Shown here piece after piece: positions 5,044 through 45,075 of a stretch of DNA of 64,000 nt (the stretch's first letter is position 1; each line of letters begins with the position of its first letter). This stretch comes from Ectocarpus siliculosus. Its lineage: Eukaryota; Sar; Phaeophyceae; Ectocarpales; Ectocarpaceae. The position numbers and the translations under genes are program-made. The stretch is from contig FN649728.1 of NCBI GenBank assembly GCA_000310025.1, positions 4,759,129 through 4,823,128 of the forward strand, read 5' to 3'. Below the pieces are notes generated by a model. That model saw only the letters and a program-made list of their open reading frames with translations. It was not told where the DNA came from and made no database searches.

Positions 5044-8000
5044 TCAGTTGACGGCTCCCTCGGGAACGCACTGGTGGTACCACTCGTTGCGCTCGACGCA
5101 CTCGGCGCCGGGCCAGCAGCACTCGGGGCCCTCCCAGTGGAGCCCTCCGCACTGCCCCCAGCCCTCGGAGCACCGGTCGTCCTTGGGCCGGCACTGGAAA
5201 ACCAAAGCAGCAACGCGGGGGGGGCAGAACACAAGAAATGGTCGGGAGTCAAGAAAAGAGAGAGAGGAGCGGGGTGGTTGTTCGGCGGAGGAGGCACAAG
5301 GAAAAACAAGGCTGCAGCGTAACTACTGACGGATACATCAAAACTTCGCTCGGTCGGTGAACGGCAACAAGAACGACAGCAGCAGTCGAGAAATCGAAAT
5401 TAATTGTCATCTCACCTCGGAGTAGCACTCCGCCATCTCCTCGCACTCGTAGCCGGCCCTGCAGCAGGTGGACCCGTCGTAGCCCTCCCCCCCGCACTGG
5501 TTGAACGCACCGACGGGGTCCTCGCAGTCGGAGTGGTCCGAGATGGGCGGGGGTACGGACGGCGCGAAGGTCGCCACGATCGGCTCGGTGGGAGAGTCCA
5601 TGGGCGTGGCCGGCTCGAGCTCGGCGGTGGGCGCCGGCGTGGGCTCGTCGTAGTCTTCTCCGTCCATGGAGGACGAGTCGTCGTCGTCGTCGTCGTCGTC
5701 GTCGCCTTCGACCGGTGCGGGGGTCGTCGGCTCGTCGTACTTCATGGTGGGCGACGGCGTGGGCTCATCGTCCTCCTCTTCGTACTTCATGGACGGGGCG
5801 GGCGTGGACTCGTCGTCGAACTCCTCTTGCTCCGGGGTGGGGGCGTACGTGGGGGGCGCTACGGGCGCTTCCATGGGAGCTTCGGTTCCCTCCTCTTCCT
5901 CGGGAGTGGGGGAGGGAGTGGGGGAGGGAGCGGGGCGAGGGGCGGGGGCGGTGCCAGGTCCTCCGTCTGATCGTTTTCGAAACAACAGGAGGCGGCGGGA
6001 ACGGGAGGGGGGGGAAATCAACATCAGAGTTTGCGTAAAAAATGAGGCAAGGACCGCGGTTGGTTCTATTCTCGGGGATAAGATCAAACCACACTTTGGC
6101 TGTTCTAAACAACGTACCTACTTTCCTCCAACAACCAGCATCTTCCTTGTGGGTGGCTACATGGTAACGGCAGCTTACCGGAGGTGATGGAGATGTCCGC
6201 GCAGTTCCAGAACTCCTCGGGGTAGGCGTCACCGTCGCCGCACTGGCCGACGACCTCGTTGATCCAGTCGGCCTTGCTAGGCGCGCACGAGCTGGGCCAC
6301 GACTCGGGGTTGAACTCGGCGTAGCCTTCGTGCTTGCACGAATTGCCGGTGTCTGCGTTGCGTGGAAGAGGACGCAGCAGGGAGGGGGGGGGGGGGTTGA
6401 GGACAAGCGTACATGCACTGCGTGCCGTTCTGCTTTGGTGGTGCCTTTCTAAGACGTCTGAGATCGACTGGCTCGGCCTACACAAACCAACACGTGTACA
6501 AGAATGTACTGTAATACGACAAGCAACAAGTGTGGGGTGTCTGGGCTCGATGAATAGATGCATGCATAATCACTCACAGTAAACCATCTGCACAACGCAG
6601 CGGTCGCAGACCACGCCCTCCGGCAGCTGGTACCGAGCGGTGGCCACGTCGCCCGGGTAGGCGCCCTCCACCAGGTCCTGGTCGGTCTCGCTGGCGCGGC
6701 AGGGGGGGTCCAGGATGAACCGTCCCTTGTATTCGGGGTCGATGGGGCCGTTGAACTCGTCGTCTATCGCGCGGTCGAGGGGGTAGTCGTTGAAGCAGGA
6801 CTGGGTGACGATGCTGTCTTCGCCTTCGGGGAGGTCGGCGGTGTCGCAGAGGAAAGCCTCCACATGGCCCTGTCAAAAGGATGGGAAAGGACGGCATGTG
6901 GGGAAGCGGGACGAACAGGTAGGGTTCGGCGTTGTAGGAAGATCGGGTTGGTAAGCTGCGTTTGTTAGGCATGTGGATTAACGGTGAAGGTGACCAGGAC
7001 TTACGTACACCACTGACGTACCTTCATAATCTTAACCTGCAAGTATAATTGGGGGGTTCAGCGCCAGCACAGTCCGTGGTAAATGAGCCTACTGAGCACC
7101 TCGACAACGTCACCGCGGAAAATGCTCTCTGCACTGACGTGGTATGTTTTATCGTCAACGCACCCAGTGGTAGGTAGACACGAGGATCTTGACCTCTAGG
7201 ACCCCGCCTTCGGCGTACGTGCCGAGGACGGGGTAGTTGTAGTTCTCGCGACCGTACTTGTTGTCACCCTCAGCCGCAGTCTGGAATGAGAGCACACGCA
7301 AGGGTGGGTGGGGGGCTGGCGTGAGAGGCGGGTGGTCGGAGAATATGTAGCGATACAGAGTCGTACGATATGTACAGAGCAGTGTTAGTCTATCTATGCC
7401 AAGCTCATTCTTTGATGTCGACAGTCGTTCAACCAAATACTGCTGTACGCCACCGGCGTCCGCTCTCCGCACACCCACCCGAACTCAAGTCTACAGCACT
7501 ACATCGGTAGTACAGATTGTGAGAACTGTAAATGCCACACAGACACAAACCACCCTATTTTTGTACCTGCTCGGGGTCGCCGCAGATGCCGTGCCTCTGT
7601 GCCACCTCGTCACTCTCGAGGTAGTTCCCGTTGGCTGCTCGTGCACCCTGGTAGTGAGGCCAGGGCTTGTCGCCTGAACGCTCGCGAATCGCGGCGGGCC
7701 CACGGGACTGGTAGCAGTGCGGGCAGAAGTTAACCGGAACCTCTCCTTCCCTGCAACGGGCGAAAGGGAGCCACAGGACAAAATCACGAGATCCGTGAGA
7801 GGAGGAGGACCAACCACCCACAAGCAACCAATCCGTTAGATTTCGGTTTCCAGCTTTTTAGTGAAAACAGCAGCAGCAGCTATTATAGAGAAAAGTGCGG
7901 GAGGTTCTACATGTAGTCTGGAAATTGTATTCGTGAGAGATCTTGAGAGGGCGAGATACGTTTCCCGCTTCAAGGCACAGATGCTTAGCCTCGCAGACAA

Positions 8001-37831: not shown

Positions 37832-40800
37832 CTGTTAGGAAAAATAATTACACACATACACCACCAAGCAATCCCAACAAAATTAAAATTGGTAATGCTG
37901 TACATACGCATACCTGGTACCTGGTACAACACATGTGTACAACACGCGAAAGGAGATGCACGGAGGCCGCGAGAGCTACTGCACAGCAAGCTGCATCCGC
38001 AGCTTGGAACTTTTGCGTTGCTGACAGAACAATGGTCGGAGAAATATGCTCTTGCTCCCGGTCTACCCTACACTTGTGGTCTAATAGAGCACGGTGCCCT
38101 CCGATGTCGTTCTCGCCTACATGTACATGAATCATGCTGTTTACAAAGCATGAGTTGACAAACATGAGATAATCGACGCTCTACAATAGTTTGCTTGCGC
38201 TCATTGCGTATTCACCTCGGGTTCTATGCATATGGTGCTCAATACGATTACGTTAGGTTAGATGAGGGCCGAAGCAGCAAGCGGTCTACAATACAAACTA
38301 CAAACCTCCCCGAACAAGATGAAGACTTGAGTGAGGCTATCAATACAGAAGTGAGGGGTGGCACGTGATTGGATATCACTCCGAGCGATCTGTTTGGCAC
38401 TACGAGCGTGTTGCACAGGTTGAAAAAATCGAAAACCGCACACTCAACACCAGCTGCCCAACACGCAACATGCAGCTCTCCACTTCCAAGCTACCGCATC
38501 GGACGAGGAGCGTGAGGCTATCAATGGTACACGTTAAGGGGTGGCACATGGTTGGATATCACTCCGAGCGATCTGTTTGGCACTACGAGCGTGTTGCACA
38601 GGTTGAAAAAATCGAAAACCGCACACTCAACACCAGCTGGCTGCCCAACACCCAACATGCAGCTCTCCAACTCCAAGCTACCGCATCGGACGAGGAGCGA
38701 CTGCGCGCTCCGTCAATCGCTATTCGGATAGCGTAAGACGCCCCTTGCTAGACTACAAAAGCCTTTTTTTCGGAAGAACGTGTTCGGCAGAGGAGCAGAG
38801 AACAAAAATGGACATGTGTTCCAGCTGGAAACAAGGCTCGATACACTTGCCAAGGAGTGAGTGCCCGAGGAACAACTAACTGCATCAGGAGGCTCGGGAT
38901 ACTGGCACAGAGTACTGACATTCTTACGTCTCGGTGCTATGCACGAGTATGTTGACATCGAACAGCTGGACGCCGTTTGTGTATTGCGTTTCGGCAACGT
39001 GAGTAAATTTCTGTCGGTGTGGAGTGTGCGCTGGGGCGCGTTCTTGGTGCGGGGAAGTGCTGTCTGTCGTGCTTGTTGTTTACTGCTGCTGTGCCACACT
39101 GCTGGATGTATTCCGCACCCCGTACAAAATGTTTTATGTTCACACTACAAACGCAACGCGTTCGGAACAAGAGCACCCTGACGACAGCACCTCAATCCTC
39201 GAATGCCTGTACTCACTTGCACACGCCGCCCGGCGGGAAGCAACACTTGCCGCGCGGAAGCCCGATCGATCCTCTTCGTTGCTGCTGCACGCCTCCGGAC
39301 CCCCTTGCCCCTTTTGACTCCAGACGGACCAAAAGCGTGCGCAACAAACGAGCTCAGGGTTCAAACACAGGACGGGATAGTTCTCCAGTGGTTTTCTCCT
39401 GCGCGACCACGCCCGCCGCCCGTCCCTCAACTCCCGAGCTCCTCCTAACGATTCTGCTTGGTCTCAAGCCCTTGATAGCTTGATAGAGCTGCAGATGACA
39501 AGTCACAGCACGACGGTCCAGGGGGGCCTCTAACTGGGAACGGGTCTGCCTGGTTCCTGGGGTGCCACAGCCAGCATCGATGTAATATTTTTGAAAATCA
39601 CACATCGCTCGCGACTCGCGACAATTGTTCCTGGGGTGGCGAGGAGCATGCACCATCAACAATGACTGGACAACACCGCGAGAACACTACATCTGTGATT
39701 GCAAAGCCAGACGCGGAGCCTGTGATAACCGGCAAAGTGAAAATTGATGGGCAGGCTTCCCAGGGAAATGTAAGTTCGTCGTTTTCGTCGAACCCCCCTT
39801 TGTAAGCAAGTGGTACGCTTCGTGGTACCGACGGACAACCTCAGTTCGAGTGGAGCACCAGCAACAACGTGCCATCGCACAGGTGTAGCTACATGTAGCG
39901 TTGCAGATTTCCACACCTCCCGCCACGTCCCAAGTGCTGTATGTTTTGTCGTCCCATCTAGGCACAGCCAAGTGTACGCGTTTACATCCTGGCACATGAC
40001 ATGTACATACATACCTAAATTATGTGTGTAACGCCCCAAACGCAGCGCGGACCACCCACAGGGTGACAAGTGATAAACACGAACTTGATTTTCTCTTTTT
40101 TGCCCCTCCGTTGCGGTTCCCCCTGCCGAGCTTACCTTCAGCTTTTAAAGCGAGGACTTGAGCAGTCACTAACCTGTTCGCGAGACCGCAAGTTTGACCC
40201 TCAAATTTCCGTTGGTTCCGCAGTGCAGAAATGACGTCATTCCTCCGTCCGAGGAACCAATTTACTTCTAAATTACTTTACTCCCCGTACCCCGTACTGC
40301 CAGGATACTGCTGTAGTCGATAGATTTTGCTATGCGTATGCATACGACCTACAGCAAATATTGGTAGCTACTTGAACCGTAGGAAACCAAATAAGGACCA
40401 GGCACTCATCGCGATGGAGAGAAAATAGGGAGGTCACCCCGCAAGAAGAGGAACACCAACGAAAGCATGCGTTAGGTATCGTCAGCTTCGTAATCGCCCA
40501 TCTCGACCAGCCGCGCATGTCTCGTCGACACTGCTGTCCATATTTTTTCTTCGTCTTTCGTCGATGCCGCATGTTCAAACAAGGCTCACTTTTGATCAAG
40601 CACAACAAGGTCTTGTCCAGACCTCTGCGGCTTTCAACTACTTCCTTGTCTTTCGCAGCCTTTGATATTGTTGTGTTGCATTGATGCGGAATACAATAGG
40701 GAGCCTGGTCGTCTTCGTCTCGAGCACCATTGAACACAAAACCTACACTCCACACCTTCGACTCCACACTCACGAACAACAATGCTGTAGTATTTTTATT

Positions 40801-40846
40801 CACGACGTTGTGCGACCGCATTCACCTGGTGCGACGGTGCTGTCAG
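37832..40846. other. Gene-poor stretch between divergent genes
   Basis: Apart from the tandem duplication at 38331-38700 I see no supported gene. Several open frames of 100-150 codons on both strands overlap each other, lack family motifs and look random. The region should contain promoters for the divergent flanking genes. Confidence 0.4.
38331..38700. repeat. Tandem duplication, period ~181 bp
   Basis: Copies at 38331-38511 and 38512-38700 start GTGAGGCTATCAAT and end CGCATCGGACGAGGAGC. They are about 90% identical; the second carries a few small insertions. Recent local duplication in non-coding DNA. Confidence 0.85.
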
Positions 40847-40879
40847 GCTAAGTATGAGATACATGAGCACGAGGAGCGG

Positions 40880-41062
40880 ATGTTGCCCCTTAAGGCTGAA
40901 AAAGGTGGCGCGGTAGGGACCGGGAGGGAGAGGGGCGTGAGAAGACGAGCGTGCAAGGATTCGTACGCGGAGAGGAGTCGAAGGAAGGAAACGCGGGAGG
41001 AGGAGGACGAGAAGGAGGACGAGAAGGAGGACGAGGACGAGGACGAGGACGAGGATGATGAC

Positions 41063-41097
<35 letters not shown>

Positions 41098-44000
41098 ATA
41101 TGCGGAGAGCGATAGTGAAAGTGACTGGGAGGAAGATGGCGAGGGGATCTCCAAGGACAAACGGAAGCACCCGATTCGGAGCAATTTTCACCTCTGTATC
41201 GATTGGGATCCTCCCGGGGTTGAGGTGGCCCGCAGGTGAAGCGGTGGACTGCTGTACACGTCGAGAGTAATGCCTGATTTGAGTGGTGTGCGACATTTCT
41301 CACCAAGACACTTATCCAACCTTTGCGGCCTTGTGCATCACGCATGGTATCCGGTCTAGGCGTCCAGACAGAGACGCTCTTGTGAAATCGTTGCCCTTTC
41401 AAACCGGAAGATGCGCTAACATGTCACACAAGTCTCACTTCTCTCTTCCTTCCTATCTCTCGACTAACTTTCTGTCACACGTGGTAGGGAGAACGAGGAA
41501 GTCAAGCTAGGCTGGACGGAATTCGAAGGCGGTTGGTACGCGTTGTCCGGCTTCTCGAAGACCAAGCATGGGCACCTTGAGCTCAAGGGGTTCATCAAGC
41601 CAGACGGCCACCTTTTCGTCTTCAAGGTGTGTCTTATTTCCCCAGAGACGACCTGGCCTTGTCCAATGGAGCGATATGCTTCCAGAGTGCGGGTTGCGCC
41701 TGGTACAGCAGTGTGCCTTTGGATGAATTGAGTTGAGTTTCCCGTGCGTTCGTTTCGTGCAGATGAAGCGCTCGTTGTGACAGCATCGGTTGTTGTTGAC
41801 CTGGATCCACCGAAAGCCTTGATCCATCCTCGCGCAGCGGTAGTTTCGCCCACGTTCGCTTTATGCCACGAATGCATGCTGACCACCATCTCTTTACTTC
41901 GCATATTAGTGTGATATTCCGAGTGAACAACCTCCGTGGCCAGCGCTTGCTGCTGTACTCCTTGTCTTCGTGGTCTCGCTACTTATCACAATCAATCAAC
42001 GTATTCATTCCCACGTTCGTGCTCGTCTCTTCTTGTTTTCATATGGTCGTTTCGCAGGCCGAAGATGTCATCGATGCCAGCGAGGAGTCTTCGCGCGCTT
42101 CAGCGGGCACGGAGAAAGGGGTACGGTGTATGCTCGCGTTGGTCCCTACCAGAAGATTTATTTTGCCGCATGTTCAGCTACAATTCATAGGACCAGCCGC
42201 ACAGCAGTTGGAAGAATCTCACTCAGCATGTCAACGAAGGCCAACAGCGGTTGTTTTCGTCGCCACGGACTCGAAACTGTTCCACGTATTGTTCTTGCAG
42301 GTGAACAAACCAGCGGCAAGGCGGAGGAGATTGAAGTTGACGAAGCCGACTAGGAGCCCTTTGAAACCCATCAAGGTGCCGAAAAAATCCGCCATGCACC
42401 CCCAGCACATCAGCGGGCCGAACTCGATGCAAAACTGGGACGCCATGAAAGGTTGTAGCGAGCTTATGACCAACCTCATCGACCAAGTGAGAACCACGTT
42501 GAAAGAAGAGTTTCCTCACGACACACCGCCGCTGGAGCCCCCGCAGACCACTCGGAATGAAGCCGGCGAATTACACACCGTGTTCTTCGCAGGAAGCACC
42601 AAGCTGGCTGAAATTATTTTCAAGAAGACCCGAACAAAGTATGTCCGGTCGTACGCGCTCAAGCCCAATAAGTATGAGCCAGAAGAAGTCGACCGCAACT
42701 GCTTAACGTGGGTTCTCAAGTTCATCAACCACGGGTCGGGCATTGAGCCTCATTGCTTCCTCAGAGGTGTGTCTGGTGCAGAGAAGGCGAACAATCTCGA
42801 ATGCATCGGAAAATTCGGCGATGGACTGAAGTCTGCGATGGACCTCTTGGTTCGCTTGCTCGTCAACGTGGTGGTCACAACCGCCGGCTTCACGACCACG
42901 GCCGTCCTGGAAAGAGACGGGAACTCCTACATGCAGCACAGCATGAACAAGCAGACCGAGCGCCGGGTAGATGTCACCCTGACGTTTTCGCCGGAACTTC
43001 CCCCTGACGGCATCAACCCCGACCTGCTGGACCCCATGTCCGTCTTCTTATCCCCGAGCGAGGACGGCGTGAGCACCGTGCACGGCACCGTTCTTTTGGG
43101 CGAGGAGATGAGGGGCATGCTGCACAATCGCGATTTTCGGGTGGCAGAGATGGGTTCGGCGTACCTGTTCGGGTTCAACCTCAAAGACCCTCGGCGAGAC
43201 TTGATCCAAGGCCGAGACAGAGGCGCGATGAACCCGAAGCTGACACGAAAGGTGATCATCATGCTCGTTCGCGAAGCCATACTAAAAAGCTCAAGAATAC
43301 GACGTCGGATCGTGCTGGCGCTCACACGGGGAGGCCAGTGGACACCCTACGGGGACATTCAAGCGGGAGCGTGGGGCGAGGAAGCGATCACTCTCATTCA
43401 GAACGAGAACCTCGTCATGTTCCCCGGCACAGTGCTAGCAAACCACCACCCGCCGATCTGCGCGATGATCGCCGAAGTCAAGGATCTAACGATTAAGCGT
43501 TGTCACCAGTCCCTAGACCAGGGAAGCGCTCTCGTGAGGGACTTTGTCAATGAAGTCCGCAGCTTACCGCGGGAGGACATCGGGCAGGACGCTGCGGCGT
43601 CAGGGTGGGCCACGACAGTCAGGGAGGAGCTGCTCCGTTTGACGGGGGCGACGGAGTTCGCGGCCGTCGACTTCCCTGGGAAGCTAGGGACGAGACACGT
43701 CGTGTGGGTGGAAGCAGACGTAGTGCTTGTTTCCCGCAGGAGCCTGGCGGTAAACCTAAGGCAAGAGGACGTCAAGACCGCCAAGTATCTGCTCGACACC
43801 ATTTCGTGCTCAATGGAGCGGGAACTCTCCTTCGAAAAGCTGTCCGAGCGGGCCTTTGAGGTCTACCATTTGATCATTTCCGCGTCAGCAGCAGCGCCTT
43901 CAAGCGAGGCGCCTAGCCCCTCGAACGGAGAACTGCTTGCCGACGGAGCCCAGGAGAATGGAGCAAACCCTCAGCCGGGTGGACTGGGTGTGACGGGAGC

Positions 44001-45075
44001 AGCACCTGCGCCAGCGGACGCAACGGCCCCGGAGTCTGTTGGCAAGGGTGAGCAGGATGGGGAAGGGGCATCGGCGGCGGCGGCGGCGGCGGCGAACGAA
44101 GAAAGCGGGGAAGAATCCGATGGGGTTAGTGGGCGTGAGGTGAATGAGGCCGATGGGGATGCTGGTGCAGCTGCCGACGACTCGTCGGAAGACTCTGGCC
44201 AAGGAGCACAAGCAAGGAAGAGATCTTGCGACATGGTTCGCGAGCAAGACTCGGCGGGAGTGGACACCGTCACAAAGCGCCAGAAACAAGGGGGTTCGGC
44301 GGAGGAAAACGGCAGCGGTACAACCCCTCCGATTTTGGAGCAGTCCGCCCGCCTCGGAGAACAAGCTGCAAGGGCAGCTATTTCTACCGTGTCCGTCAAG
44401 TTCGAGCCGAACGCATCCGAGATTGGAGCGTCTTCCCTACCGCAACAGCTCAACGGTATCGAGCCAGCGCCAGCCTTGGGGCAACCTGGGTCTTCTCAAC
44501 CCGAGGGGCTCGTCGACGGAACCGGCATGAGCCAAGAAGCTGAGGAAGTGAAGAATGGGGACCCCTTACCCTCGGCGCTTGGAGAGGGGGCTGCACCGAT
44601 CGTGCCGCTGGCAAGAAAAGGCGAAGAGCTAGGAGCGTTCCTGTCTGGAGCACTGATTGTGCCCGCCCTCTCCCATGTCTTGCAGGCCGATATCGGCGAC
44701 GCGGGCAAGGCTGTCGACCTGTACAGGATAGTTGGCTGCAAGGAGAATGGGGAGAACGCGTCGGAGAGGTTTCGGGCGGTGTTAGCAAGCGAGCCCGCGA
44801 GAAGGGTGCTCGAGTCGGCAGTGAAGCAGCAGGGAGTGGACATAAGTTTTTTTTGCTGGGACAAACCCGACGCTCTGCGCGGTTTTGTTGGACACGGTGG
44901 CCGGATTTTTGTTAACTTGTCTTCGTCGAAAACCGTCCATAAGTGGGCGGAGGAGGATCTGCCTACCATGCTGGCGCACGAGATGGCCCACCTGAGGTCG
45001 TCCACGAGTGGCGACGTGCACTCCCACGCCTGGTCGGTTGAGTTCCGAAAGTGCGTGCGCTCGGAGGACTTTTAG
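40880..45075 (+). CDS. Predicted GHKL-type ATPase fused to a C-terminal HExxH zincin
   Basis: Exons 40880-41235, 41488-41626, 42058-42120 and 42301-45075, all in frame; ~1110 residues from the ATG at 40880. The frame is open upstream to a plausible acceptor at 40847, so the N-terminus may be longer. Residues ~40-87 are almost all Asp/Glu. A small Trp/Gly-rich beta domain follows (GWYALSGFSKTKHGHLELKG). The last exon carries a GHKL-like core: INHGSGI (G1-like, ~328-334), LRGVSGAEK, then IGKFGDGLKSAM (G2-like, ~355-366). After ~700 comes a long Ala/Glu/Asp/Ser linker with a bipartite basic signal (RKRS...KRQK), so a nuclear site is likely. The C-terminus has MLAHEMAHLRS (His1079, Glu1080, His1083) and HSHAWSVEF (His1093/1095), zinc-peptidase marks like SprT or ImmA/IrrE. 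Function unknown; a clear N-box is not visible. Confidence 0.7.

Follow-up and report, generated by a model that had tools for sequence, protein, structure and literature searches.

A 64,000-nucleotide window of the Ectocarpus siliculosus genome contains, on its + strand at 39662-45075, a brown-algal gene that may well encode a nuclear-targeted member of a GHKL-zincin protein family whose other members were detected in phages, plasmids, bacteria and archaea, a reading to which we give about even confidence. The gene appears to be a domesticated offshoot of this microbial family, whose function may be to clear proteins off DNA. Its GHKL fold and the start of the domain that follows are homologous to proteins of the phrog_6077 type, and in the sampled cellular relatives a GHKL module is usually followed by a HExxH domain.

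Gene structure and algal homologues

Exon mapping by tblastn with the full-length orthologues P0002 and P0003, together with splice sites, yields five exons, four introns that are all GT-AG, and a product of approximately 1,157 residues. Exon 1 (MTGQHRENTTSVI..., 39662-39769) ends at a GT donor. Exon 2 (40847-41235; tblastn, splice sites and orthologue composition) encodes a strongly acidic, low-complexity N-terminal region, with 51 D/E and 23 K/R among 128 residues in P0002. Exon 3 (41488-41626; tblastn, model and splice sites) encodes a small predicted beta region with a predicted local distance difference test score (pLDDT) of about 60, and exon 4 (42058-42120) was placed from the P0001 sequence and splice sites. 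Exon 5 (42301-45075), 100% identical to residues 79-1002 of P0001, encodes a basic region, the GHKL domain, a second domain, a linker, a zincin-like domain and the stop. Alternative exon 2 acceptors at 40853 and 40859, two and four codons downstream, would give 1,155 or 1,153 residues, and a 4-mer count favours them by one point (212 versus 211 for 40847); acceptor 40847 was retained because its NA-YEIHEHE reading agrees with the orthologues. The public model P0001 (1,002 residues) has a different start and is without exons 1 and 2, and the ATG at 41863 of the long open reading frame is intronic by exon mapping.

The original prediction placed two motif sets in one protein, and both indeed share a single open frame: NHGSGI and IGKFGDGLKSAM lie within 42724-42843, and MLAHEMAH...HSHAWSVEF at 44968-45045. 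In a search of 5.8 billion protein sequences the best match, at 100%, is named 'expressed unknown protein [Ectocarpus siliculosus]'. Searched against the window's own 189-Mb assembly, P0002 matched this gene alone, exon by exon, with no second copy found, and the phrog_6077 profile matched a single place in the window's assembly, at the gene; copy counts in the Ectocarpus assembly are lower bounds.

The motif combination exceeds chance: besides the window's own protein, the first protein search listed at least 13 homologues at E <= 1e-81. Later protein searches added at least five further homologues, four of them short pieces, and the sources include Ectocarpus, Scytosiphon and Hapterophycus. 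Our motif comparison covers 15 longer algal proteins (14 plus P0024), with the short pieces P0015-P0018 set aside. P0012 and P0014 begin downstream of the GHKL motifs and P0006 ends before the zincin region; GHKL motif counts use 13 algal rows and zincin counts 14. The two regions occur in the same order, GHKL then zincin, in 12 of the 15. Two further protein searches, which needed shared five-residue words and leave room for other eukaryotes, gave solely algal-type proteins among the matches listed. Viral contigs scanned for two algal patterns yielded no relative, and so no giant-virus or phaeovirus member, which limits rather than excludes one, and a DNA search against phages gave no match.

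A divergent GHKL fold of phage type at the G1 site

Structure prediction of P0001 residues 104-329 (42376-43053) gives a Bergerat fold, and a profile bridge leads from the algal GHKL region to sequences of which three lie above the Pfam HATPase_c_3 cut-off. These two results bear out the earlier suggestion of a divergent GHKL fold. The phrog_6077 profile matches P0001 across residues 216-374 (E 4.6e-7) and P0013 (E 1.9e-11); 12 of the 14 algal proteins were listed at E <= 10, and among the eight E-values seen, five were <= 1e-3 and three 0.0022-0.041. Direct Pfam and NCBIfam searches with the algal protein returned nothing above cut-off, and PDB sequence searches nothing convincing; the algal profile hit no MORC or MutL chain there. 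Among PADLOC models, P0002 has a weak methyltransferase match in its low-complexity region only (E 0.026), and P0013 none.

The GHKL domain follows a basic region (RRRRLKLTKP...KKS, 42319-42384) that is less basic in several relatives. The N-box ELMTN (42460-42474) keeps its Glu in 13/13 algal rows and its Asn in 12/13, and the G2 motif IGKFGDGL (42805-42828), on a loop of low pLDDT in the model, keeps GxxGDG in 12/13. The GRDR motif (43210-43221) aligns with the RDR of prokaryotic relatives. Downstream lies a second alpha/beta domain with an MFPGTVL motif (P0001 430-609, 43354-43893), of which just the first part, to residue 477, aligns with prokaryotic relatives by hhalign. P0024 is the most divergent algal member: it keeps HEMAH and has lost the N-box Asn, G2 and GRDR. 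P0007-P0011 are the reverse, with ATP-site motifs kept and HExxH gone.

In the G1 motif INHGSG (42724-42741), Asn replaces the canonical Asp, the residue that contacts adenine. Across 36 chosen sequences (13 cellular, 14 phage, 9 algal), this Asp is present in every cellular row, in one of the 14 phage rows and in no algal row; the remaining phage rows carry Asn in six cases and otherwise Ser or Thr. With Asp nearly absent from the phage rows and absent from the algal ones, the algal protein is of phage type at this site, for which shared descent and convergence are both possible. The predicted fold and aligned motifs mark the algal protein as a divergent homologue of the GHKL fold; lacking the G1 DxGxG, it is not classed as a working GHKL ATPase.

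A zincin-like C-terminal domain behind a flexible linker

The C-terminal domain (P0001 867-1002, 44665-45072) was modelled by AlphaFold as a compact unit, with pLDDT 74.2 and a predicted template modelling score of 0.71. In this model of the Ectocarpus domain, HEMAH (His971-Glu972, 44977-44991) lies on a confidently predicted helix beside strands (pLDDT block mean 87); among algal rows that include the region, 7 of 14 have it intact. The HSHAW motif (45019-45033) provides His985 as a candidate third ligand, with His987 as an alternative; His985 is retained in 7/7 rows with HExxH and in 2/7 without it. In a Foldseek search with the C-terminal model, the top 44 rows are M1-type zinc aminopeptidase chains, and, judged from the ends of the match ranges rather than from a residue alignment, HEMAH may be displaced by one helical turn relative to their HExxH. 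The viral structure library gave no match for the domain at E <= 0.001. Pfam SprT-like hits on the algal proteins were below cut-off (best E 0.069; 2/14 members), with no WLM hit listed. Comparison by hhalign of algal with prokaryotic zincin gave 0.9% and 6.8%, and 5.5% with all 14 algal rows; the six HExxH-keeping algal rows against 32 prokaryotic pieces gave 39.9%, which is suggestive and not used as proof. A RhoGAP-like match at the start of the domain (DLYRIVG, 44608-44800; E 0.13-0.96) was dropped because of its shortness and because it falls on modelled strands, the RhoGAP fold being helical.

The linker (P0001 612-866, 43900-44664) is predicted to be disordered (pLDDT < 50) and is rich in Ala, Gly, Ser and Pro (127 of 255 residues). 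The original prediction described it as acidic, which holds in a mild form (42 D/E versus 15 K/R), whereas the strongly acidic run sits N-terminal to the GHKL domain, in exon 2. Within the linker, the bipartite nuclear localization signal-like pair KR...KRQK (44218-44286), which we take to be a nuclear import pattern, recurs as KR...KR in 13 of 15 algal proteins, with KRKR...RLK in P0010 and P0011. The proposed nuclear signal stands as a conserved sequence pattern and not as a demonstrated signal. VKFE at Lys778 (44395-44406), presumably a SUMO attachment pattern, is matched by VKx[E/D] at the same aligned site in 14 of 15 algal proteins (VKVG in P0006); the linker is otherwise variable.

Relatives in phages, plasmids, bacteria and archaea

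Direct links from the algae to prokaryotes are weak at first sight: tblastn with P0002 against phages listed 31 records, all at E >= 3, and P0013 found 10 phage records (best E 0.1) and five plasmid records, one at 2e-4. Most of the prokaryotic set was grown from these links, later confirmed by profiles. A genome scan yielded 23 relatives, with HExxH after GHKL in 22 and a degenerate form in L032. Since one of the two scan patterns included HExxH, relatives were also sought by the GHKL family alone; at E <= 1e-8 this search found three matches in 398 genomes and two in 296 genomes (two phyla). Two of these, G001 and G002, are known centres, and the remaining three (L058-L060) all carry HExxH near the end. 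The family is rare in both samples. The original prediction had regarded the domain order as unusual, a view not supported by these relatives, which share it.

HExxH is followed by about 200 residues or more in the 15 actinobacterial loci (L011-L025); elsewhere it is mostly close to the end of the protein. HExxH is present in three of 15 phage proteins (L034, L039 and L040) and absent from P0020, P0021, L008, L035-L037, L041-L044, L047 and L048. At E <= 1e-3, tblastn with L034 matched 106 phage records and 12 plasmids, of which 8 and about 5, respectively, were read. The N-terminus of the prokaryotic profile matches Mlh1, MutL and MORC chains, with MORC3/MORC2 at E 0.014 and worse, and the C-terminal zincin profile matches Wss1p at E 9.3e-4. 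Pfam matches to 14 prokaryotic zincin pieces comprise DUF6782 in four (best E 1.6e-4), SprT-like in three (0.0093) and WLM in two (0.063). In the phylogenetic tree the algae fall into a single clade, supported at 100/100, whose stem measures 2.18, and the tree does not assign this clade to either the phage or the cellular sequences.

Several relatives depart from the simple two-part form. Repeated GHKL modules precede a single C-terminal HExxH domain in plasmid proteins of Aneurinibacillus (L005) and Alkaliphilus (L010); P0023 has three GHKL modules, and P0019 two full modules plus the end of a further one. A short protein of a Citrobacter plasmid (L054 3010-3357) resembles the Salinibacter protein in its zincin alone (E 3e-6), so the zincin may also exist by itself. 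The phage relative P0021 matches the PADLOC model of JetD over 71 residues (E 6.5e-4).

Gene neighbourhoods, read by hand and without statistics, are in several prokaryotes consistent with the proposal that such proteins may act at DNA or against mobile DNA. On Salinibacter ruber pSR56 the GHKL-zincin gene (L046 2426-3868) lies inside a type I restriction-modification operon, in the order DNA methyltransferase, specificity subunit, GHKL-zincin gene, restriction subunit R. In Natrinema, Piwi and phospholipase D-family genes lie two and three genes on from the relative, and the upstream stretch in the halophilic archaeon DL31, where an HNH endonuclease and an IS4 transposase are near, resembles that of Natrinema. 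In Halorussus the neighbours are a DEAD/DEAH helicase and a more distant DNA methyltransferase on the opposite strand. DprA adjoins the relative in Streptomyces and Euzebya, as does CoiA in Croceicoccus, with SbcCD and SMC genes beyond. The neighbourhoods in Aneurinibacillus (group II intron gene) and Alkaliphilus (nucleoside monophosphate kinase) are uninformative. Phage neighbourhoods vary, comprising helicases and dUTPase, a sigma factor and a kinase, DNA methyltransferases, DNA ligase and, in one case, tail genes.

Proposed mechanism and rival explanations

The most economical reading of this architecture is a clamp with a tethered zincin. The GHKL module, clamp- or chaperone-like, would open and close on DNA or on a DNA-bound protein complex, holding or remodelling it, and would bring the protein part within reach of the zincin-like domain, which hangs on a flexible linker and would cut that part. 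SUMO may mark the algal protein or recruit it to such complexes in the nucleus, much as when proteases of the Wss1/SPRTN type remove DNA-bound proteins. The algae may have acquired the gene from a virus-type lineage, and in those without HExxH the protein could persist as a non-proteolytic clamp or adaptor.

Several observations weigh against this picture. The G1 Asp is absent from all algal rows (Asn 12/13, Thr 1/13), and HExxH is gone in 7 of the 14 rows with the C-terminal region, so ATP-coupled proteolysis, as originally predicted, is not supported as the conserved function. None of the Foldseek matches reaches E <= 0.001, and the third ligand is uncertain; the predicted C-terminal metallopeptidase therefore survives as a domain probably of zincin type, less firmly supported than the GHKL fold. 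Because the loss of HExxH from half of these algal proteins shows proteolysis to be dispensable in some lineages, we give substantial minority weight to a domesticated scaffold. The protein would then serve as an adaptor or chromatin clamp, selected for neither ATP hydrolysis nor proteolysis, and its catalytic motifs would be relics that decay at differing rates from alga to alga. P0024 without G2 and the N-box Asn, the absence of the G1 Asp from all nine algal rows compared, and a linker SUMO consensus better preserved (14/15) than HExxH fit such a scaffold. On the other hand, His985 accompanies HExxH in 7/7 rows, including the two most divergent proteins, P0013 and P0024, and the five HExxH-losing rows in the tree form one group (91/79, under the strict mark of 95/80), a loss within one algal subgroup; together these argue that HExxH was maintained over long branches. 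The retention of GxxGDG in 12/13 rows likewise speaks against the scaffold.

It is unlikely that the C-terminal HExxH is not a zincin at all, its resemblance to peptidases being fortuitous and just the GHKL half common to prokaryotes. Such a view draws on the lack of a Pfam match above cut-off and of a significant profile link to prokaryotic zincin, and on weak fold matches that are possibly one helical turn out of register; it sits poorly with the well-predicted HExxH helix beside strands, the M1-type rows heading the Foldseek results, and prokaryotic relatives with HExxH after the same GHKL module. That relatives beyond the algae are prokaryotic and viral could also point to contamination of the assembly by a bacterial or phage gene, or to two genes merged in annotation, an artefact that we consider extremely improbable given four GT-AG introns, two-part homologues in Ectocarpus, Scytosiphon and others, and both domains and the linker within one 2.8-kb exon.

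A broader version of the clamp-plus-zincin reading, which we put forward tentatively and regard as rather doubtful, is that GHKL-zincin machines form an undescribed family, present in phages, bacteria and archaea as well as in one lineage of eukaryotes, whose members strip proteins off DNA. Phages and the conflict islands of plasmids and archaea (restriction-modification, Piwi) would carry them; brown algae would have taken up a virus-type branch, with the G1 Asp replaced, relocated it to the nucleus and placed it under SUMO control, where it would act against DNA-bound or invading proteins. The phage family phrog_6077 is now tied to a GHKL and HExxH architecture in phages, bacteria, archaea and a eukaryote, which poses the concrete question of whether a GHKL module gates a protease. 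If the mechanism is true, it would add a further route to proteolysis of DNA-bound proteins beside Wss1, SPRTN and GCNA, and would make the gene a case of brown algae domesticating a viral or mobile-element protein. Nature itself offers separation-of-function comparisons, one algal group having lost HExxH and another the ATP-site motifs.

Elsewhere in the window, on the - strand, an open reading frame at 5407-6087 has a fungal-type cellulose-binding domain near its end (CBM_1, E 1.9e-8), and an exon-like frame at 58939-59583 matches UNC-50 (E 2.7e-8).

Comparison with known systems

We found no description of a GHKL-zincin (GHKL-HExxH) fusion in the open-access literature searched. The DNA-protein crosslink proteases Wss1, SPRTN and GCNA have HExxH in common with the algal protein, whose nuclear and SUMO motifs are recognized by sequence only; to our knowledge, these proteases have no GHKL part, and the algal proteins lack SprT or WLM matches above cut-off. 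T4 rIIA-type phage proteins, likened here by description only, have an N-terminal GHKL and a variable C-terminus, and the available part of PMC7824862, which also describes separate SprT-like proteins in jumbo phages, mentions no C-terminal zincin for them.

MORC/paraMORC and MutL proteins have the GHKL fold in common with the algal protein and are matched by the prokaryotic profile but not the algal one; unlike them, the algal protein is without the G1 Asp and has a zincin-like domain. MORC-type GHKL proteins are linked to restriction-modification systems by Iyer et al. 2008 (PMC2292703), whose title states this for MutL homologues, and by PMC8011034, a link paralleled by the relative in the Salinibacter operon; neither peptidase nor protease occurs in the text of PMC2292703.

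The closest likeness is to the phrog_6077 phage proteins, of unknown function, and to plasmid and chromosomal proteins named 'ATP-binding protein', with which the algal protein has in common the GHKL module, the RDR motif and the start of the next domain. Most of these relatives comprise 365-480 residues per unit and are without the algal linker; their cellular rows retain the G1 Asp that the algal protein does not, and after HExxH they have a conserved D...F where the algal protein has His. The cellular relatives sampled, and 3/15 of the phage proteins, carry HExxH as the algal protein does.
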